A stretch of 64,000 bases of DNA from an uncultured Alphaproteobacteria bacterium (lineage in GTDB: Bacteria > Pseudomonadota > Alphaproteobacteria > HIMB59 > GCA-002718135), in assembly GCA_902521315.1 (NCBI GenBank), contig CABYRH010000003.1:149452-213451 (forward strand), in the 5' to 3' direction. Within the stretch, counting starts at the first letter, position 1. Each line of letters opens with the position of its first letter. The notes beneath the pieces are model-generated. The model was given only the letters and a program-made list of their open reading frames with translations, did not search any database and was not told where the DNA came from. Positions 29,480 through 41,142 of this stretch are shown here, piece by piece. The translations under genes and the position numbers were made by a program.

Positions 29480-30557
29480 ATTCACTCATTTTAATAACAC
29501 GATTTTCTTTTATCGATAGTTCTGCTGCTTGACCTATAGCAACGGACATTAAACCATCTTCGAGAGAAACATCAGGTAGTGTATTATTTTTAATAGCATC
29601 ATAAAATGCCAAATGTTCAAAATATGTTGATCCATGATGGTGTCCTGCCATTAATATTTTTTTATCAACTTCCATATCATCAGTTATTATAGTAGAACTA
29701 TTCCTCATTCCCATTTTTACTTGAGATATATTTTTACCGGAATCGTGAGATGGAACAAATGCTTCAATTTTCCCTTTGTCTCCAACAGCTACTACTTCTT
29801 CCTGGTATTCAGAATTTTCTGCAAACATACATAAATCTAATAATCCTCTAACACCACTTTGAAAATCAATTATTACGAATCCATTATCAATAATATCTGG
29901 TACCTTACCACTGTATTTTTCATCAAGATGATTCACATCTTGACTGCCGCTTGCAAAAACTTGTTTAACTTCACTTTGAGTTATAAATCTCATCAAATCA
30001 AAAAAATGACAACATTTTTCAACCATTGTACCACCAGTGTTTGAATCAAATCTATTCCAATTATCAACTTTTTTAAGAAATGGAAAACGATGTTCACGAA
30101 TAGACACCATTTTTAATTTACCTAAAGTTTTATTATGAACTCTTTCAATTAATTTTTTAACAGGTGGCATATATCTGTATTCCATGCCTACCCAAATCAC
30201 TTTTGAATAATCTTTTGAAATTAATTGAAATTTTTTACAATCATCAATGGTTGTGCAAAGTGGCTTTTCTATTAAAAGATGTTTATTGGTTTTCAAAATT
30301 TTTTCTAAAACTTCAATATGAGTAAAATTTGGAGTGGCAATTATATATGCATCTGCATCATCGTTATTTATTAATTCATCTAAGTTCTTATATGAGTTAA
30401 AATCATTCGTAATAAGCGAAGAAGATTGGTTTAATGAACCCTCGTTAGGATCACATATTGAAGTGACTTTAGCGTTATCTAATAAATTAACATTTTTAAT
30501 ATGTTCCTGACCCATAGTTCCTGCGCCAATGATTCCATATTTAATAAAGCTACTCAT
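29469..30557 (-). CDS. Gfo/Idh/MocA-family oxidoreductase
   Basis: YGIIGAGTMGQEH, IIATPNFTHIEVLEKILKTNKHLLIEKPLCTT. Confidence 0.92.
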   Translation of the reverse strand: MSSFIKYGIIGAGTMGQEHIKNVNLLDNAKVTSICDPNEGSLNQSSSLITNDFNSYKNLDELINNDDADAYIIATPNFTHIEVLEKILKTNKHLLIEKPLCTTIDDCKKFQLISKDYSKVIWVGMEYRYMPPVKKLIERVHNKTLGKLKMVSIREHRFPFLKKVDNWNRFDSNTGGTMVEKCCHFFDLMRFITQSEVKQVFASGSQDVNHLDEKYSGKVPDIIDNGFVIIDFQSGVRGLLDLCMFAENSEYQEEVVAVGDKGKIEAFVPSHDSGKNISQVKMGMRNSSTIITDDMEVDKKILMAGHHHGSTYFEHLAFYDAIKNNTLPDVSLEDGLMSVAIGQAAELSIKENRVIKMSEFNL

Positions 30558-31927
30558 ATTGTATATGTTGGTATTTGTAATTTAGTTCCTAAATTTTGTA
30601 TATCTTTAAAAATATTTCCGTAAGTAAATGCTAAATGATGTTCCAATCCACTTAAGAATATTTTTTTTATTTTTTTATTTGTATTTTTTCCTAAACTTAC
30701 TACTCCGGAAGTACCAGAGAAAGATTTTTTTCTCTTAATAATTTCCCCTCTTGCTATAAAAAATTTTAATTTGTTTTCAGATTTTGAAACTCTGAAGATA
30801 GTTATTTTACCTGGTTTTAAAGCAAAGTCATGAAGTAAGGGTTTTTTTCGATTTGAATGTACAGTTACATTAGCCTTATTTTTTTCCGCCATACTTATAG
30901 GTGCAAGTCCACAATGCCAGAATACTGCAGTGTTGTCTTTTATATCTAAATCAACAATATCTACCAGAAGTGAGGGCTTATTATTTAATTGATTTAAAAT
31001 ATTACAACTTAGGCTTCCAAGAACATCTGCTTCACATGCAGAACTTATTTTTTTTTCGTTCATCATCGCCATTGGAGCACACGAAGCACAACCATATTCA
31101 GTAAACATTTCTGGCCAACATCTCACTGCAAAAGCATCAAACTTTTCTTTTTTTTGAATTTTTTCCAGTCCATGAAATAATGAAATACTTTTTTCAACTT
31201 CAATTTGATTAAGATTTTTTAAATCTTTGAAATTTTTTTCAAAAATTTTTTTAGTATTTATAATTTCATTTTTCTTTATTTTACTAGAAATTTTAAATAA
31301 TTTTTTTAAACTAATTTTAGAAACATTTGTATGAAGTTTATTTTTTAATTCACTCTCTTTATAGTCACATGTATCAAAACCATCTGGTCTTTTACCAACT
31401 AAAGCTATTTTAGGATTTGAGAAGGTAATCTGTTTAAAATTCTTTTCAGAGTTTTCAATTTTTTTTAAATAGCTTTTATTTAAAGTGTCTTTACTATTTA
31501 TAAACTCAATAATTTTTTTGTTGAAGTATTTAATTTCTTTATCAAAGATAACAAAATCAGAATAAATTTTGTTTTTTATCAATGAATGTAATCCTAAATT
31601 AACTCCACAAAGAGAATTTAGTCTTAATCTGCCTCCAGTTCTTTTTTCTTTAAAAGATATAAAAAAAATTGGTTTTTTAAAATGTTTAGTGAATTTTTTA
31701 ATAAATTTTGAGTCAGTAAAAGTTGACTGAATAATTAAATATTTTTTACATTTTTTTTGCTTAAAAAAAGACAATGCTTCTTCACTAATTTCATCATTTG
31801 TAACTAATTTTTCAAAAAAAATAATGTTATTACTTAATTTGTTTAATCTTTTTTCTACTAAGTTTATTTTTTCGTTTGCAAAATTTACATCAAATGTTTC
31901 TCTACCAAGTTTAAGACAACCAATCAT
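30554..31927 (-). CDS. L-fucose/L-arabinose isomerase-like (FucI-related) sugar isomerase
   Basis: AVRCWPEMF..GCASCAPMAMMNEKKISSACEADVLGSLS...FWHCGLAP...GLEHHLAFTYGN. Confidence 0.78.
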   Translation of the reverse strand: MIGCLKLGRETFDVNFANEKINLVEKRLNKLSNNIIFFEKLVTNDEISEEALSFFKQKKCKKYLIIQSTFTDSKFIKKFTKHFKKPIFFISFKEKRTGGRLRLNSLCGVNLGLHSLIKNKIYSDFVIFDKEIKYFNKKIIEFINSKDTLNKSYLKKIENSEKNFKQITFSNPKIALVGKRPDGFDTCDYKESELKNKLHTNVSKISLKKLFKISSKIKKNEIINTKKIFEKNFKDLKNLNQIEVEKSISLFHGLEKIQKKEKFDAFAVRCWPEMFTEYGCASCAPMAMMNEKKISSACEADVLGSLSCNILNQLNNKPSLLVDIVDLDIKDNTAVFWHCGLAPISMAEKNKANVTVHSNRKKPLLHDFALKPGKITIFRVSKSENKLKFFIARGEIIKRKKSFSGTSGVVSLGKNTNKKIKKIFLSGLEHHLAFTYGNIFKDIQNLGTKLQIPTYTI

Positions 31928-32096: not shown

Positions 32097-33353
32097 ATGA
32101 TAAAATTAATTCTAAAAAAACTTTCAATTACTTTTATTGCAATCTCTTTTACTGTAATTTCTTCTGTAGCTTCTGCAGAAATAACAATAACTTGGCCGTC
32201 TATTTGGGTTGGAAAAGATTCAAAAACTACAGTTATTGGAGAACTAATAGATGAATTTAATGCAGCAAATGCAGGTTCAATAAAAGTAGTGGTTGAAGAA
32301 CAAACTGACTATGACATTTATGCTCAAAAACTAACTGCTCAGATAGCGACAGGTGAATTACCTGACATAATGACAGTTGGTGCTCAGCTTTTAGATGTTT
32401 TACATAGAAGTGGGAAAGCAATGGATCTTGCTCCTCATATAAATTCAGATCCACATTGGAATAATGTATATCCAGAAAATGCACTTCAATCTGCTATGAC
32501 TGATGGAGTTCTTTCAGCATTGCCATACGAACTTTTCGTAACTCCTGTTACTTATAATAAAAAAATATTAAAGGAAGCAGGTTATGATGAGTTCCCTGAC
32601 AATTATGATGATTTTTTCAAAATGTGTGAAGCAATTACTGCTAATGGTAAAGTTTGTACATCTCAAATGACTGGTAAAAATGGTTGGACATCAATGTTAT
32701 GGTATTCACAAGCATTAGCTTCTGCTGGTGGACCTGATATCTATGAAAAAGGTCTCGATCATCCAGCCTATGTCAAAGCTTTTGAAGTTATGGAAAAAAT
32801 GTATCAATATACAACTAGTGATGCCATTGGTGCAGATGCAGGTGTTTCAGGAGGTCATTTCCTAAATGAAAGAACTGCAGTATTTATGAATGGTCCATGG
32901 TTTATTGCACGATACACTTCTGACGGTATACCTGGTCTACATGAAAATATAGGTGTCGCTGCTGCTCCCATGTTAATGGGTGGTGAAGGCTCGCCTGGAG
33001 GTTATGTAGGTGGTAGACAATCATCATTAGCTGCAGGTAAACAATCTGACCCTGCAAAAGAAGAAGCAATAGTTAAGTTTTTAAAGTGGCTAACTATTCC
33101 TGAAAATGTTGCAAGGCTATCTTATAGTTCAGGTGCGATGTTCATTGTTAATGCTGATTTACCTAATGATATGGATAGACTGTTCATAGAAATGAAACAG
33201 GGAATAAGTGACGCTCCTTATGTTGCTCCTATCTTTCAAAACGGAATTGGCTCTTTAGCGGTAGCTAGTGAATTTCCACAAGCATTGTCTGCTTTAGCCT
33301 TAGGTGATGTTACACCTGAAGGTGCAGTAGAAATGTTACAAGACGCTGAATAA
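32097..33353 (+). CDS. sugar ABC transporter substrate-binding protein
   Basis: Signal peptide; family 1 solute-binding motifs; SD GGAGG. Confidence 0.9.
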   Translation: MIKLILKKLSITFIAISFTVISSVASAEITITWPSIWVGKDSKTTVIGELIDEFNAANAGSIKVVVEEQTDYDIYAQKLTAQIATGELPDIMTVGAQLLDVLHRSGKAMDLAPHINSDPHWNNVYPENALQSAMTDGVLSALPYELFVTPVTYNKKILKEAGYDEFPDNYDDFFKMCEAITANGKVCTSQMTGKNGWTSMLWYSQALASAGGPDIYEKGLDHPAYVKAFEVMEKMYQYTTSDAIGADAGVSGGHFLNERTAVFMNGPWFIARYTSDGIPGLHENIGVAAAPMLMGGEGSPGGYVGGRQSSLAAGKQSDPAKEEAIVKFLKWLTIPENVARLSYSSGAMFIVNADLPNDMDRLFIEMKQGISDAPYVAPIFQNGIGSLAVASEFPQALSALALGDVTPEGAVEMLQDAE

Positions 33354-33401: not shown

Positions 33402-34274
33402 ATGAAAATAAAAAAAGATGAGGTTGGCTGGTTATTATTATTTATTGCACCTACCTTAATTCTTTTTACACTTTTTTTTATTTTACCAATTTTATTTCTT
33501 TTAGCGAGTAGCTTTACAAATTGGGATGGTATTGATGCAGAATTTGTTGGGTTTGAAAACTATATTAAATTATTTAATAAAAAAAGCTTTGTAAGGGCAA
33601 TTACAAATAACCTATATTGGTGCATCACTGCAGCACTTATTACTGTTCCGTTAGGTCTTATCATAGCATTACTCTTATCTCATCGATCAAGGGGATGGAA
33701 AGTTTTTAGAACAGTCCTATTTGTGCCACAAGTTGTATCATCAGCAGCCATAGCGATGCTTTGGGCAGCTGTTTTTAATGCTGAATATGGACTATTAAAT
33801 TTTATTTTAGATAACATTGGTTTATCTGATTATAAAAACCATAATTGGTTAGGAAATGTAAGAACTGCAAATGCTGCATTAATTGGGTTTTCTTTGTGCT
33901 ACGTTGGTTATTTTATGGTTATCATGTTAGCAAAAACAGCAAGCATTTCAGAAGATTATTACGATGCCGCAAAAATAGATGGAGCAAGTCAAATTCAAAA
34001 AGATTTTTATATTACAGCTCCTTTAATTAAGAGCACATTTTTTCTTTGTATCATTTTAGCTGTAATCTTTAATTTAAGACAATTTGAATATGTTTATCTT
34101 ATGACTGCTGGCGGTCCAGCAAATAAAACTCAAGTACTTGTAGTTTATATTTGGAATGAGTTAACTGTTCAAAGACTTGGAAGAGGAAGTGCGGCAGGAG
34201 TAATAATGATTGCATTAGGTGCTATGTTACTTCTTTTACTTCGTAGAATATTAAAAAGTGAGACTTATAACTAA
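33402..34274 (+). CDS. sugar ABC transporter permease (MalF type)
   Basis: EDYYDAAKIDGASQIQKDFYITAPLIK EAA loop. Confidence 0.92.
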   Translation: MKIKKDEVGWLLLFIAPTLILFTLFFILPILFLLASSFTNWDGIDAEFVGFENYIKLFNKKSFVRAITNNLYWCITAALITVPLGLIIALLLSHRSRGWKVFRTVLFVPQVVSSAAIAMLWAAVFNAEYGLLNFILDNIGLSDYKNHNWLGNVRTANAALIGFSLCYVGYFMVIMLAKTASISEDYYDAAKIDGASQIQKDFYITAPLIKSTFFLCIILAVIFNLRQFEYVYLMTAGGPANKTQVLVVYIWNELTVQRLGRGSAAGVIMIALGAMLLLLLRRILKSETYN

Positions 34275-35112
34275 TATGACTAATGACAATTCTTTAAATT
34301 TTTATTCTATTTTTAAGTGGGTAATAATAATTTCTTTTGTTGTATATGCAGTATTCCCATTTCTTTGGTTGGTGCTTGCTTCTTTAAAAACAAATGCAGA
34401 GTTACTTGATAATCCATTCAAGTTACCAAAAGTTTTCCAATTTCAAAACTATTCAAATGCAATTCAAGAAGCAGGTTTAATTCAACTAATAATAAATTCT
34501 TTAGTGATTAGCACTTGCGCTACTTTTTTAAATATCCTTTTTGCGTCCATGTGTGCTTTTGCTATAGCCAGACATATTTTTTGGTGGAAAAATGTATTAT
34601 TTTTAATGATAACAGCTGGTATTTTAGTTCCTTTAAATGCATTAATTATCCCATATTATGCAATTATCAATTTTTTAAATCTTTATGACACAAGGTTTGG
34701 TCTAATATTAGTTTACTGTGCAGTTGGATTACCTGTATCTACGTTTATCTTAACAGAATTTTTTAAAGGAATTCCAAAAGAAATAGAAGAAGCATCATAT
34801 CTAGATGGTTGTAATTTTGTCGCTCGCTATTTTAGAATTATGTTGCCTTTAGCTCTACCTGGGTTAGCCACTGCAGGGACATTTCAGTTCATTTTATGTT
34901 GGAATGAATTTATCTACGCAATGCTTTTAACTTCTTCAACTGAAATAAGAACAATCCAGTTTGGTATAAGTTATTTTACTAATGAATTTTTCTCTGATTA
35001 TGTTGGAATGTTTGCAGCAGTCGTAGTTAGTATTTTGCCGAGTATTACGGTGTTTATACTTTTTCAAGAGAGAGTGATAACTGGTTTAACAGCTGGGTCA
35101 GTTAAGGGATAG
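34258..35112 (+). CDS. sugar ABC transporter permease (MalG type)
   Basis: KEIEEASYLDGCNFVARYFRIMLPLALPGLATA; VITGLTAGSVKG end. Confidence 0.92.
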   Translation: MRLITNMTNDNSLNFYSIFKWVIIISFVVYAVFPFLWLVLASLKTNAELLDNPFKLPKVFQFQNYSNAIQEAGLIQLIINSLVISTCATFLNILFASMCAFAIARHIFWWKNVLFLMITAGILVPLNALIIPYYAIINFLNLYDTRFGLILVYCAVGLPVSTFILTEFFKGIPKEIEEASYLDGCNFVARYFRIMLPLALPGLATAGTFQFILCWNEFIYAMLLTSSTEIRTIQFGISYFTNEFFSDYVGMFAAVVVSILPSITVFILFQERVITGLTAGSVKG

Positions 35113-35119
35113 ATATTTT

Positions 35120-36394
35120 TTGAAACATCCAAATATTATAAAGATTATTTGCCATGATATAGGAAGACACCTGGGTTGTTATGGAGTAAAATCTATCAAT
35201 TCAAACGCTATAGATACATTAGCAAAAAATGGTATCTTATTTAAAAACTCTTTTGCAACAAGCCCTGGTTGTAGTCCAAGTAGAGCTGCGATAGCTACTG
35301 GGATGTATCCTCACAATACAGGTGTATTGGGTTTAGCACATGCACATTTTGGTTGGAGTCTTGATAAAAAAATTAATCACATTGCAAAATATTTTTCAAA
35401 AAATGGTTACACCTCAATTCTTTTTGGATTACAGCATGTTACTTATCATGAGAAAACACTTGGTTTTAATAAAATTTTTCCAGAGAGACCAGCTGATCAA
35501 GTGCTAAGAAATATTACGAAGATTATTGATAATAAAATTTTTAAGAAACCTTTTTATGCTGAAGTTAATTTCTTTGAACCGCATCGTCCTTTTGATTATG
35601 GAGGTATTAAACCAGATAAATCTAAAGGTGTGTATATCCCAAAATATATACCAAAAAATATTTATAGCCGAAGAGAATTTGCAGAAATGCAAGGGGCAAT
35701 TAAAAAAATGGATAATACAGTTTTGAAAATAATAAATCTTCTGAAGAAAAAAAATCTTTATGAAAATACTATTATAGTTTTTACAACAGATCATGGGATC
35801 CCATTTCCCAGAGCTAAAGGAACTCTATATGATTCTGGCATTGAAACTTGTCTTATAATTTCTTATCCAAAATTAAATATAAAAAATAAAAAATTTACTG
35901 AATTAATTACTAATATTGACATTCTACCAACTCTTTTAGATTTTGCAAAAATTAAAATTCCAAAAGAAATACAAGGTAAAAGTTTTTATCCACTAATATT
36001 AAATAAAAAATATTCTGAGAATAATGAAATTTTTGCTGAAAAAACTTATCATGATATGTTTGATCCGATGCGGTGTATTCGAAATAAAAATTTCAAATTA
36101 ATTATAAATTTTGATTCTGATAAAATTATAAGAGTCCCAGGAGATATTATGATGGGCGATACATATAAAACTATGTTGGGGCAAATTATTAATATTCGAG
36201 AACGTTATGAATTATACGATATAAATAGAGATAAATTTGAAAAAAAAAATTTAGCTAATAATAAAAAATATAAAAGTATTAAGCGTGAACTTTTGAGAAA
36301 AATTGTAAGATGGATGAAAAAAACTAAAGACCCATTATTGAAAAAGCAAATACAATCACCTTTTTTTCTTGATACACTAAAGCAACTAAAATAG
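35120..36394 (+). CDS. sulfatase, N-sulfoglucosamine sulfohydrolase (SGSH)-like, Cys-type
   Basis: CSPSRAAIATGMYPHNTGVLGL (C-x-P-S-R), TDHGIPFPRAKGTLYDSG, DPMRCIRNKNFKLIINF; TTG start. Confidence 0.85.
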   Translation: MKHPNIIKIICHDIGRHLGCYGVKSINSNAIDTLAKNGILFKNSFATSPGCSPSRAAIATGMYPHNTGVLGLAHAHFGWSLDKKINHIAKYFSKNGYTSILFGLQHVTYHEKTLGFNKIFPERPADQVLRNITKIIDNKIFKKPFYAEVNFFEPHRPFDYGGIKPDKSKGVYIPKYIPKNIYSRREFAEMQGAIKKMDNTVLKIINLLKKKNLYENTIIVFTTDHGIPFPRAKGTLYDSGIETCLIISYPKLNIKNKKFTELITNIDILPTLLDFAKIKIPKEIQGKSFYPLILNKKYSENNEIFAEKTYHDMFDPMRCIRNKNFKLIINFDSDKIIRVPGDIMMGDTYKTMLGQIINIRERYELYDINRDKFEKKNLANNKKYKSIKRELLRKIVRWMKKTKDPLLKKQIQSPFFLDTLKQLK

Positions 36395-36405
36395 ACTTTT
36401 AAAAT

Positions 36406-37098
36406 ATGGAATCATTTTTAAATAAAAAAATATTTATAGAATCAAATGAATATACTTATAGAGTTGAACATTTAACACTTGAGGGTACATGTTCAACAGA
36501 TCATGGCCCAAGAAATGTTAAAATTAAAAATTTGTTAGTTGATAAATATCCAGTAACTAATCAACAATATTATTTTTTTTTAAAAAAAACTGGTTATCAG
36601 CCAAGAGATTCTCAAAGATTTTTAGAGCACAAACCAAATAAAAAATTATTCAACCTACCAGTTGTATTTGTTTCTCAAAATGATGCAATTGCATATGCTA
36701 AATGGGTAGGTGGACGACTTCCAACTGATGAAGAATGGCAATATATTGCGGCTGGCCCAAAATATCTAGACTGGCCATGGGGGAACAAGTTTAATCCTTT
36801 ATTATGTAATCACGATGGCAATAAGCTTGAACCCGTAAACACACATAGAAAAGGAGAAAGTTGGTGTGGTTGCGTAGATATGGCTGGAAATTGTTGGGAG
36901 TGGACTGCTGGTATTCATGATGATGGCAATCACCAATTTGCTTTGTTAAGAGGTGGAAGTTATTTCTATGCACATGATCATTGGCACGTTGGAGGAGGTG
37001 CGAGAAAAAATAATTATCATTGGAAATTACAAATATTAAATGAAGGAATGAACAGAGCCGCTACTCTAGGCTTTCGATGTGTCTATGATGAAAAATAA
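36406..37098 (+). CDS. FGE/SUMF1-family (formylglycine-generating enzyme superfamily) protein lacking the catalytic Cys pair
   Basis: VDKYPVTNQQYYFFLKKTGY, YAKWVGGRLPTDEEWQYIA, VDMAGNCWEWTAG, RGGSYFYAHDHWHVGGGAR, TLGFRC. Confidence 0.82.
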   Translation: MESFLNKKIFIESNEYTYRVEHLTLEGTCSTDHGPRNVKIKNLLVDKYPVTNQQYYFFLKKTGYQPRDSQRFLEHKPNKKLFNLPVVFVSQNDAIAYAKWVGGRLPTDEEWQYIAAGPKYLDWPWGNKFNPLLCNHDGNKLEPVNTHRKGESWCGCVDMAGNCWEWTAGIHDDGNHQFALLRGGSYFYAHDHWHVGGGARKNNYHWKLQILNEGMNRAATLGFRCVYDEK

Positions 37099-38896
37099 AT
37101 TTACAGATAAAAAAAAATCTATAGATTTTTCATTAGGCAATTTAAATTTATCTATAGATTTAAATAAAAACATTTTCTTAAAAGAATTAAATTTTATAAA
37201 AAATATTAACAACGAAATCTTTGTTATTCGTGCTGAAAATAAGTTAATTCCAAAAAATAAGTATAAAATAGAAAAAGTCTTTAAAAATACCGATGTTAAC
37301 TTCACTGTCATATCAATAGATTTTTCTCAGAATTTTGAAAATGATTTCTTTAAAGGAAGAATATCTTTTGTTCAGAAGAAAAAAAATATTATTGATTTTA
37401 TTTTTCAATTATCTGCTAGATGGCATAAAGATATTCCTAAGAAAGTACTCCTAAAATTTCCTTTTATAATAAATCTCCATAAAAATAAAAATTTCTTAAA
37501 ACCAGGTGATATTTTTGATGGAAAAAAAAGAATTAAAAAAGGTGTTTGGAATTTACACGAATACCCACCCTCAATTATATCTGATAATTTAGGAATTGAA
37601 TCTTTAGGATTTGAATTTTACGATCAATTTCCCTGGCAGGCGAATTATAATCTTGGAATGAGTGAAGCTATATCGAGTGAAAATTTTGAAAAGTTTGAAA
37701 CTGAGGTTCAATTAACACAGGAATTAACAGATATTATTCTAATGAAAATTTATACAAGCTCTAAAGGAAGAGAAAAAATTTTTAGTCTTTGGAAAGAAAA
37801 TACCAGAAAAAGATACGATCTAAGAAAATACCACGATAGTAACAATAGATGGATAAAAAAAAATTATCTACAGCATTTTATGTTTGCTTATGGAGAAGAG
37901 GCATTTGATTATAAAAAAATTCAATTCAAAATTAATCAAATTATCAAAGAAGGAAAGCAATTTGGAGGTTATGATTCAATTTTATTTTGGCATCAATATC
38001 CCAGACTGGGTTTAGATGAAAGTAATCAATGGCAACTATATAAATATTTACCAAAAAATTATAAAACTATTAAAAAAATCGTTGATATATGTCATTCACA
38101 TAATATTAAATTTTTTATTCCTTTTAAACCATGGGACATTAGATCAAATGAAAGTTTAGATAGCCACGCTAAATCTTTAGAAAAGTTTATTAAAGAAACA
38201 AATATCGATGGTTTTTTTCTTGATACAATGTCATCTTTACCTGAGTCATTTCTAAAAATTCAAAAAAAATTTCCCTCATTTGAATTTTGTTCAGAAGGCA
38301 CACCAAGAGAACAAAGGCAAATTGAAACCTTAACAAGTTCATGGGATCAAATTGGTGATATCAGAAGAAATTTTAAAGTAGATATAAATTCAAATTTCTT
38401 TCGTTTTCTTTTTCCAGAACACCCTCTTAATCTTGTTTCTCGATGGAGTGTTGGATCTGACAAGGATGCATTAATTAAAAGAGCAGCTTTTAATGGAATG
38501 GGAATGGTTATTTGGCAAGATATTTTTGGTTGCTGGCTTCCATTTAGTATCGAGCAAAAAAAGAAGATAAAGTCTTTAAAAAATATCCTTAAAAAATATC
38601 ATAAATATTTTTATGGAGATAATTCAATTCCATTAATAAAAACTTTATCAAAAAAAATTATTTGTAATGAATTCTCAAATTCACAAGGAAAACAAAAAAT
38701 TTATTCCATTTATAATTTTGGTTCAAATAAAATTTATGGCAGAATTTTAAAACTTCCTTTAGCAGTAATGGAATTTAAACAAATTTATGGAAAAAAAGTA
38801 AATATCCAAATAGAAAAAAAACAAAATACTTTTTATTTGTTGGCAAATCTTGATGCAAATGATGTAATTCTAGTTAATATCATATTTAAAATTTGA
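37085..38896 (+). CDS. TIM-barrel glycoside-hydrolase-like protein, family unassigned
   Basis: N-terminal beta-rich region then barrel-like segments (..VDICHSHNIKFFIPFKPWD.., ETNIDGFFLDTM, FEFCSEGTPREQRQ); ATG at 37085 overlaps preceding gene. Confidence 0.5.
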   Translation: MMKNKFTDKKKSIDFSLGNLNLSIDLNKNIFLKELNFIKNINNEIFVIRAENKLIPKNKYKIEKVFKNTDVNFTVISIDFSQNFENDFFKGRISFVQKKKNIIDFIFQLSARWHKDIPKKVLLKFPFIINLHKNKNFLKPGDIFDGKKRIKKGVWNLHEYPPSIISDNLGIESLGFEFYDQFPWQANYNLGMSEAISSENFEKFETEVQLTQELTDIILMKIYTSSKGREKIFSLWKENTRKRYDLRKYHDSNNRWIKKNYLQHFMFAYGEEAFDYKKIQFKINQIIKEGKQFGGYDSILFWHQYPRLGLDESNQWQLYKYLPKNYKTIKKIVDICHSHNIKFFIPFKPWDIRSNESLDSHAKSLEKFIKETNIDGFFLDTMSSLPESFLKIQKKFPSFEFCSEGTPREQRQIETLTSSWDQIGDIRRNFKVDINSNFFRFLFPEHPLNLVSRWSVGSDKDALIKRAAFNGMGMVIWQDIFGCWLPFSIEQKKKIKSLKNILKKYHKYFYGDNSIPLIKTLSKKIICNEFSNSQGKQKIYSIYNFGSNKIYGRILKLPLAVMEFKQIYGKKVNIQIEKKQNTFYLLANLDANDVILVNIIFKI

Positions 38897-38902
38897 TAAG
38901 TA

Positions 38903-40087
38903 TTAACTTACTGCTTTTATAATACCTCTCAATTCCGATAGCCCCATCATTCTTCCTATTGCCGTATAACCAGGATTAATAGATTTCTTAAATTGATCAT
39001 CAAGTAAACAATGTCCATGATCTGGTCTCATTGGAATTTCAACTTTTTTATTTTTACTTCTTCTTTTTTCTTCTTTTAAAATTAGTTTTATTAATTTAAC
39101 AAAATCAACATCTCCACTTAGATGATTTGTTTCATAAAAGCTTTTTTTGTCTTTATCAATTTTTACGTTTCTTAGGTGAATAAAATTTATTTTCTTTTTG
39201 AACGTATCAAAAATTTTATAAATATTATTATTAATGTTTGATGCTAGAGAACCTGAGCAAAACGCCATACCATTTGATAATGAATCGTATGAATCTAAAA
39301 TAAACTTATAATCCTTTAAATTTGAGACAATTTTAGGTATTCCAAAAAGTGCGACTGGTGGATCATCTGGATGAAGGGTCATATTTACTTTACATTCCTC
39401 AGCAACAGGTACGATTTCTTTTACAAAATCAATTAAATTTTCTTGCAATTCTTTTTTTTGATAATTTCTGTAAGCGTAGATCATATTTTTAAATTCATTT
39501 ATAGAATATTTTTTTTCAGATGCCGGTAAACCACCCATTACTGCAATTTTCAAATTTTCAATATCTTTTTTATTCATTTTCTTAAATGTTTTTTCTGCAT
39601 TTCTAATTTCTTTAGATGAATATCTAGAATCAACATCATTTAATTTTAAAATAAAAGTTTCAAATATAATTATATGTTGATAATTAAATTTTAAAGCCAA
39701 ACCATCTGTTGGCAGTTGAAAATCTAATTGAGTTCTTGTCCAATCTACTATTGGCATAAAATTATAACAAATTGTTTGTATATTATTTTTAGAAACATTT
39801 AATATTGTATCTTTGTAATTATCAATGAATTTCCTAAAATTTTTATGTCTTAATTTAATGTCATTATGAACTGGAATACTTTCAACTACATTCCATTTTA
39901 AATTAACATTATTGGAATTATTATGCTTGTTGATAAAATCAATTCTCTTCTTCACATCAGTTTTAGACCATTTTTCACCATACGGTATTTGATGTAATGA
40001 AGTTACTATATATTCAGCATTTGATTGTCTTATATCTGATAAAGTAACTGGATCAGTAGGCCCATACCATCTAAAAGAATTTTGCAT
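38903..40087 (-). CDS. uxuA: D-mannonate dehydratase
   Basis: FRWYGPTDPVTLSDIRQSNAEYIVTSLHQIPYGEKW; CYNFMPIVDWTRT; HPDDPP; MRPDHGHCLLDD. Confidence 0.93.
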   Translation of the reverse strand: MQNSFRWYGPTDPVTLSDIRQSNAEYIVTSLHQIPYGEKWSKTDVKKRIDFINKHNNSNNVNLKWNVVESIPVHNDIKLRHKNFRKFIDNYKDTILNVSKNNIQTICYNFMPIVDWTRTQLDFQLPTDGLALKFNYQHIIIFETFILKLNDVDSRYSSKEIRNAEKTFKKMNKKDIENLKIAVMGGLPASEKKYSINEFKNMIYAYRNYQKKELQENLIDFVKEIVPVAEECKVNMTLHPDDPPVALFGIPKIVSNLKDYKFILDSYDSLSNGMAFCSGSLASNINNNIYKIFDTFKKKINFIHLRNVKIDKDKKSFYETNHLSGDVDFVKLIKLILKEEKRRSKNKKVEIPMRPDHGHCLLDDQFKKSINPGYTAIGRMMGLSELRGIIKAVS

Positions 40088-40137: not shown

Positions 40138-41142
40138 ATGAAAAAAAGAAACCTTGGTAATACTGATATTAAACTTACATCAATTGGATTTGGTGGAGCC
40201 CCTCTTGGAAACTTATTTGAAGAACTTAAAGAAACTGACTGTTTTGATATTGTTAAAAAATCCTATGAAATGAATATAAATCTTTTTGATACCTCACCTT
40301 TATATGGATATGGCCTAAGTGAGCATAGGATTGGAAATTTTTTAAAAACAATTGATCCAAATAAATACTATATTTCAACAAAGGTAGGTAGATACCTTAC
40401 CCCAGAAAGAAATTATTATAAGGAGGGAAAATTTAAAGGTCATATAAATTTTATTCCACATTTTGATTATTCATATGATGGCGTTATGAGATCATTTGAT
40501 CAATCGATACACAGATTAGCAGTACCAGAAATTGATATTTGTTTGATTCATGATGTAGATAGATACACTTTCGGTAACGAAGTAGATCATTATTTTAAAA
40601 TTGCAATGAGTGGCGCATATAAAGCATTAAATGATCTTAAAGAACAAAAAGTAATTAAAGCAATTGGAGTAGGATTAAATGATGCTGATATCTGTACAAG
40701 ATTTGCAAACGAAGGTGATTTTGATTGTATGCTTCTTGCAGGAAGATATACACTCTTAGATCAAACCGCACTTGATGAATTTTTTCCAATTGCAAAAAAA
40801 AATAATATAGGAGTAATTTTAGGTGGTGTTTTTAACTCAGGAATTTTAGCAAAAGGTATTGGTGATCAAATAACTTATAGGTATGATAAAATACCAATTG
40901 ATATAAAAGAAAAATATCGAAGTATATCTAAAATTTGTTTACAATACAATGTTCCTGTACCTGCTGCAGCACTCCAATTTTCGTACTCTAATAAATTAAT
41001 ATCATCTATGATATTAGGCATTGATAGAATTGAACAAATTCAACAGAACTTAGAAAATTTAAATTATCCTATACCAAAAGAGTTATGGGATAATTTAAAA
41101 AAAGAAAAACTTCTTGATGAGAGAAGTATGATTGATGTATAG
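40138..41142 (+). CDS. aldo/keto reductase (L-fucose / D-threo-aldose 1-dehydrogenase-like)
   Basis: LTSIGFGGAPLGNL, FDTSPLYGYGLSEHRIG, STKVGR, LIHDVD. Confidence 0.87.
   Translation: MKKRNLGNTDIKLTSIGFGGAPLGNLFEELKETDCFDIVKKSYEMNINLFDTSPLYGYGLSEHRIGNFLKTIDPNKYYISTKVGRYLTPERNYYKEGKFKGHINFIPHFDYSYDGVMRSFDQSIHRLAVPEIDICLIHDVDRYTFGNEVDHYFKIAMSGAYKALNDLKEQKVIKAIGVGLNDADICTRFANEGDFDCMLLAGRYTLLDQTALDEFFPIAKKNNIGVILGGVFNSGILAKGIGDQITYRYDKIPIDIKEKYRSISKICLQYNVPVPAAALQFSYSNKLISSMILGIDRIEQIQQNLENLNYPIPKELWDNLKKEKLLDERSMIDV

Follow-up and report, generated by a model that had tools for sequence, protein, structure and literature searches.

The window, a 64,000-nucleotide stretch of an uncultured alphaproteobacterial genome (1.54 Mb, 87% complete), carries a sugar-transport operon in which a gene of the formylglycine-generating enzyme (FGE) family lies between a sulfatase gene and the gene of a glycoside-hydrolase-like (GH-like) protein. 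The features are:

32097-33353, forward strand: ABC sugar-transporter substrate-binding protein (SBP_bac_8 / SBP_bac_1), by profile match; conserved upstream in orthologous loci
33402-34274, forward strand: ABC transporter permease, by sequence; conserved in orthologous loci
34258-35112, forward strand: ABC transporter permease, by sequence; immediately upstream of the FGE-like gene in loci without the sulfatase
35120-36394, forward strand: Cys-type sulfatase, 424 aa, TTG start, a facultative operon member, by PF00884 match, open reading frame and orthologous loci
36406-37098, forward strand: FGE-like (PF03781) protein without the catalytic Cys pair, 230 aa, ATG start, by profile match and orthologue alignment
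36865-36873, forward strand: C154-G-C156 of the FGE-like protein, invariant in stand-alone orthologues and absent from fused relatives
36952-37080, forward strand: rebuilt active-site segment GGSYFYA-H-DHWHVGGGARKNNYHWKLQILNEGMNRAATLGFRC, by alignment of stand-alone and fused relatives
37079-38896, forward strand: GH-like partner, 605 aa, whose C-terminal ~375 aa are homologous to the N-terminal TIM-barrel-like domain of the fusions
38903-40087, reverse strand: mannonate dehydratase UxuA (uronate catabolism), a variable neighbour, by profile match
40138-41142, forward strand: aldo/keto reductase, a variable neighbour, by profile match

Upstream of the operon, 30554-31927 encodes an L-fucose isomerase C-terminal domain (PF02952, 32.7 bits).

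The FGE-like protein scores 119.3 bits against PF03781 (cut-off 23.3) and is the sole copy of this domain in the window genome. Profile match, alignments and orthologues confirm the initial annotation of an FGE-family protein that lacks both cysteines beside a Cys-type sulfatase; the sulfatase part of that description applies to the window and most loci, and fails at locus L020 and at L023, which matches genome G034. Among 101 related genomes, PF03781 is present in just 11, where it is always this gene. Nearly all orthologues, at 75-97% identity, belong to genomes of marine uncultured Alphaproteobacteria that carry AG-... labels, which we take to be AEGEAN-169/HIMB59 from SAG accessions, genome size and base composition; one contig is in an archaeal bin. 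That contig (L027, NYXO01000081.1, assigned to a 'Euryarchaeota archaeon' MAG) carries the same alphaproteobacterial operon at ~75% identity and is probably mis-binned. A class-wide sample of 385 genomes had no orthologue, and a search of viral contigs returned no relatives. Distant PF03781 matches in Lamprocystis, Streptomyces, Rhizobium and Azospirillum belong to other subfamilies by alignment.

The active-site Cys pair of human FGE is C336/C341, and the Cys-type FGEs of our comparison set (L033 and L036-L039, from Rhizobium, Chelativorans and Ramlibacter) carry the motif GGS[YF]LCHxxYC. In the window protein, positions 36952-37005 encode GGSYFYAHDHWHVGGGAR. Alignment places an invariant tryptophan, W193, in the second Cys column and H192 at the preceding Tyr, and neither active-site Cys occurs in any orthologue or fused relative. 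The loop is ~8 residues longer than in Cys-type FGEs, with an insert that is common to the fused relatives. When stand-alone and fused proteins are aligned, W193, K207, R217 and C225 are found in 20 of 20 rows, and H192 and H205 in 19 of 20. The segment RGGS[YF][FY]YA[HQP]DHWH[VI]GGGARK[NT]..HWK[LM]Q is kept in all 13 aligned orthologues and all 28 listed loci, so the motif reflects neither error nor chance. A sequencing error or pseudogene was dropped for the same reason, together with dN/dS values of 0.11-0.20. The product of 36406-37098 is a genuine member of the FGE family that lacks the Cys pair, and it is conserved.

The loss of the cysteines and the rebuilt loop support the initial view that this is not a classical FGE. 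The His-rich metal site proposed with it is only weakly indicated, because H190 and H194 are not family-wide: H190 varies within the genus (H/Q/P) and H194 is Tyr in the fused relatives, while H192 and H205 are common to these. The C154-G-C156 element lies ~30 residues upstream of the GGS motif and may be a relocated Cys pair; the protein has other cysteines too. An AlphaFold model of the FGE-like protein, built on an alignment of 13 rows, reached a mean pLDDT of 38.

The start of the 605-aa reading frame overlaps the end of the FGE-like one, and the two are likely translationally coupled. No Pfam or NCBIfam family was found for the 605-aa protein. Within the genus, its gene is confined to genomes that have the FGE-like gene, 10 of 11; the exception, G026, has a contig end 80 bases away from the FGE-like gene. 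Outside the genus, the nearest relative of the FGE-like protein is the C-terminal domain of a 724-aa Spirosoma protein (P0001, WP_231780397.1; 39% identity, 1.5e-41), followed by that of a 711-aa Sphingopyxis protein (P0002, WP_120222584.1; 33% identity, 2e-33). The N-terminal domains of these proteins match the 605-aa protein with E values of 1.7e-29 and 2.9e-29, respectively. Three more full-length fusions were found in a Pseudomonadota sample of 399 genomes and nine in 301 genomes from the order of G679, a genome included in both samples. All 13 distinct homologues of the N-terminal domain found outside the genus carry a C-terminal FGE-like domain. The two domains of this family occur together, either fused or as adjacent genes. 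The FGE-like and 605-aa proteins are a gene-fusion ('Rosetta stone') case, in which both polypeptides are one in Bacteroidota and Pseudomonadota.

Three acidic residues of the partner, D377 and D382 (in DGxxxDT) and E406 in window numbering, are invariant in 14 sequences and have the spacing of TIM-barrel glycosidases. Profile matches are weak (alpha-amylase 0.039, GHL6 0.01). In PDB profile searches, the 605-aa family by itself matched nothing, and a wider alignment gave just sub-threshold matches of alpha-amylase type; an AlphaFold model built on an alignment of 10 rows had a mean pLDDT of 47. These motifs and weak matches point to a TIM-barrel, glycoside-hydrolase-like protein with putative glycosidase activity. 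The window protein has ~230 extra N-terminal residues that the fusions do not have. Genes at the fusion loci encode GH28, GH127, a PfkB-family sugar kinase, CoA-transferase and TonB receptors. A signal peptide is present at the start of the Spirosoma fusion, whereas none is apparent on the FGE-like and GH-like proteins of the window; the marine version probably acts on imported glycosides. Among the roles initially offered for the FGE-like protein, that of a lectin, scaffold or sugar enzyme was the right direction.

In the tree of FGE-like domains, stand-alone domains group with fused ones in a single 23-row clade (support 99/98), apart from the Cys-type FGEs and 29 other PF03781 rows, and they share the pattern HW[HY]...K...R...GFRC. 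With p 0.15, an AU test did not reject a tree in which the stand-alone proteins join canonical FGEs, and the separation from canonical FGEs therefore rests on branch support and shared features.

The sulfatase matches PF00884 at 123.5 bits, with its CSPSR motif at 35270-35284, and is predicted to be cytoplasmic as it has no apparent signal peptide. Of the 11 genomes with the FGE-like gene, 10 have a close orthologue (74-99% identity), and the other related genomes have none; the only further match at the cut-off used was a relative in G053 at 36% identity. At L020 and L023 the order is ABC permease, FGE-like gene and GH-like gene with no sulfatase between, and these genomes carry only other sulfatases of 505-514 aa. 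The dN/dS of the FGE-like gene is 0.17-0.20 for L020 and 0.11-0.12 for L023, compared with 0.11-0.12 between loci that keep the sulfatase. Thus, the gene is intact and under purifying selection in both sulfatase-less lineages. The emphasis originally placed on the sulfatase is unsupported, as the FGE-like gene persists without it in two lineages and is elsewhere fused to a homologue of its other neighbour. Collectively, the sulfatase link of the FGE-like protein is mostly misleading.

Sulfatase genes also appear in other settings around these loci. In another subclade, L021 (8499-10037) and L025 (8499-10004) have a second sulfatase in place of UxuA downstream of the GH-like gene, pointing to the same core with different substrates. 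An inverted sulfatase fragment at a contig end (L015, 3-563) looks like a single-cell amplification chimera. A conserved island of three tandem sulfatase genes, without the FGE-like gene, is found in G010 (C3, 51646-55654) and ~15 similar genomes.

A true maturase acting in trans, as first expected for the sulfatase, was not found. No canonical FGE was detected by PF03781 search, and no anSME (TIGR03942) above cut-off, in the window genome or 100 relatives. Matches to TIGR03942 in 46 relatives reached at best 75 bits against a cut-off of 349, and were taken as other SPASM/radical-SAM proteins. The window genome encodes four PF00884 proteins, all with Cys, and PF00884 sulfatases occur in 51 of the 61 genomes of the genus (G000-G060), with every locus inspected being Cys-type. 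Several are often present per genome, e.g., in G039, G027 and G054 (8 sulfatases, 90% complete). The chance of missing a recognisable maturase in all 51 through incompleteness is ~1e-32, a figure which treats the genomes as independent and the maturase gene as universal. The Cys-type sulfatases of the genus either have an unrecognised maturation route or are used unmodified. Each option has a precedent in PMC6189696: the machinery by which E. coli matures Cys sulfatases is unidentified, and a choline sulfatase left unmodified shows slow turnover. Genomes of AEGEAN169 are reported to have two to eight sulfatases each, in a study that does not mention maturation (PMC11366302). The lineage is abundant in the ocean, and its several Cys-type sulfatases per genome have no maturation enzyme that is known; this links it to the third, unidentified maturation system reported in E. 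coli and gives a second lineage in which the question can be tested.

We consider it likely that the FGE-like protein is a lectin-fold partner subunit of a GH-like enzyme for imported glycosides and not a sulfatase maturase. The partnership itself is well supported, and the physical complex and substrate-binding role are what we infer from it. The protein encoded at 36406-37098 would correspond to the C-terminal half of a two-domain enzyme, here detached, and would pair with the product of 37079-38896. The former copper/Cys loop would have been rebuilt into a conserved pocket of W193, H192, H205, K207, R217 and the ~8-residue insert, which most likely binds a sugar substrate or completes the active site of the partner, by analogy with the FGE-like domain of EgtB/OvoA serving its DinB partner. 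The lectin fold and the EgtB/OvoA precedent are the reasons for taking it as a substrate-binding or site-completing subunit. Such a complex would be cytoplasmic, and its substrates would be glycosides taken up through the ABC transporter. Judged by the neighbouring genes alone, a sulfated uronide glycoside is suggested as the substrate, and the sulfatase, where present, would desulfate the same substrate class and not be a client of the FGE-like protein. Against the partner model, linkage to the sulfatase within the genus is almost as tight (10 of 11 genomes) as that to the GH-like gene; arguments from co-occurrence within the genus are weakened by shared operon inheritance.

A bolder version, in which the two proteins form a composite active site and the rebuilt loop (W193/H192/H205/K207/R217) is itself catalytic, oxidative or hydrolytic, on the imported sugar, is conceivable and carries a minor share of our expectation. 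If true, this would give the FGE fold a new catalytic role, within a glycosidase.

We regard it as unlikely that the FGE-like protein is an oxidase in its own right, acting on a sugar or small molecule passed on by the GH-like partner. PvdO and CalU17, two members thought to be oxidases, give this reading some footing: CalU17 is among the best PDB profile matches, the fused relatives show weak PvdO profile similarity, and the strongly conserved loop holds His residues. However, H194 and H190 are not kept family-wide and no metal triad is recognisable, while the fused relatives score 25-27 bits against the cut-off of 500 of the PvdO model (NCBIfam NF051459, dihydropyoverdine dehydrogenase), which does not match the window FGE-like protein.

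The protein might also be a non-canonical formylglycine-generating enzyme for the adjoining sulfatase, using another metal site or C154-G-C156. This would agree with the Cys-type sulfatase next to it in most loci, the restriction of the sulfatase orthologue to genomes with the FGE-like gene, the invariance of C154 and C156 in orthologues and the lack of another recognised maturase in the genome. We nevertheless find it improbable, as two lineages keep the FGE-like gene without the sulfatase, and the GH-fused relatives have neither the CxC pair nor, in the stretches examined around them, a sulfatase. In addition, 40 genomes of the genus have PF00884 sulfatases without any PF03781, and the FGE-like gene is thus unneeded for other sulfatases. 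A Cys-less regulator or chaperone of the sulfatase similar to pFGE/SUMF2 is very improbable, because even though the protein is a Cys-less operon neighbour with SUMF2 (1y4j) as its best single PDB match (4.6e-18), its gene persists without the sulfatase, its relatives are GH-linked and the genome has no canonical FGE to regulate.

Returning to the partner-subunit reading, we found no description in the literature of the GH-like partner, of the split arrangement or of the maturase gap. PF03781 genes near sulfatases are routinely read as sulfatase-maturing, and this case shows that neighbourhood alone misleads. With FGE/SUMF1 the protein shares the domain family, the GN.WEW and GGS...GFR motifs and a Cys-type sulfatase in the operon; it differs in the absent Cys pair, the loop insert, the occurrence of the gene without a sulfatase and its place in the tree with GH-fused domains. 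SUMF2/pFGE is likewise a Cys-less FGE fold, but here there is no tie to a sulfatase outside the genus. In the sulfoxide and selenoxide synthases EgtB, OvoA and SenA, an FGE-like domain also works with a catalytic domain, there in the same chain, and the activity of DinB-FGE proteins needs DinB residues that contact the FGE domain (PMC5915273). The window protein has no such DinB-type iron domain, and a place among these enzymes was dropped given the lack of an N-terminal DinB domain and NCBIfam scores of 30-56 against cut-offs of 360-420. Absence of the Cys residues is reported for many bacterial FGE-domain proteins that have further domains (PMC5915273), and C-type lectins share the FGE domain fold (PMC8195603). 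In the OCTIN superfamily (PMC5915273) and the 'FGS' lectin-fold sensors (PMC8195603) the Cys pair is lost and the domain reused for binding or structure, as we propose here, whereas the partner in our case is a glycosidase-like TIM barrel in sugar operons, and the halves are separate genes in the genus. The Spirosoma and Sphingopyxis proteins, annotated as 'SUMF1/EgtB/PvdO family nonheme iron enzyme', are homologous across both domains; they differ in being single fused polypeptides without C154-G-C156 and in having GH28 and GH127, respectively, as neighbours. The case points towards a glycosidase-like enzyme that is not yet classified and has an obligate FGE-like partner.
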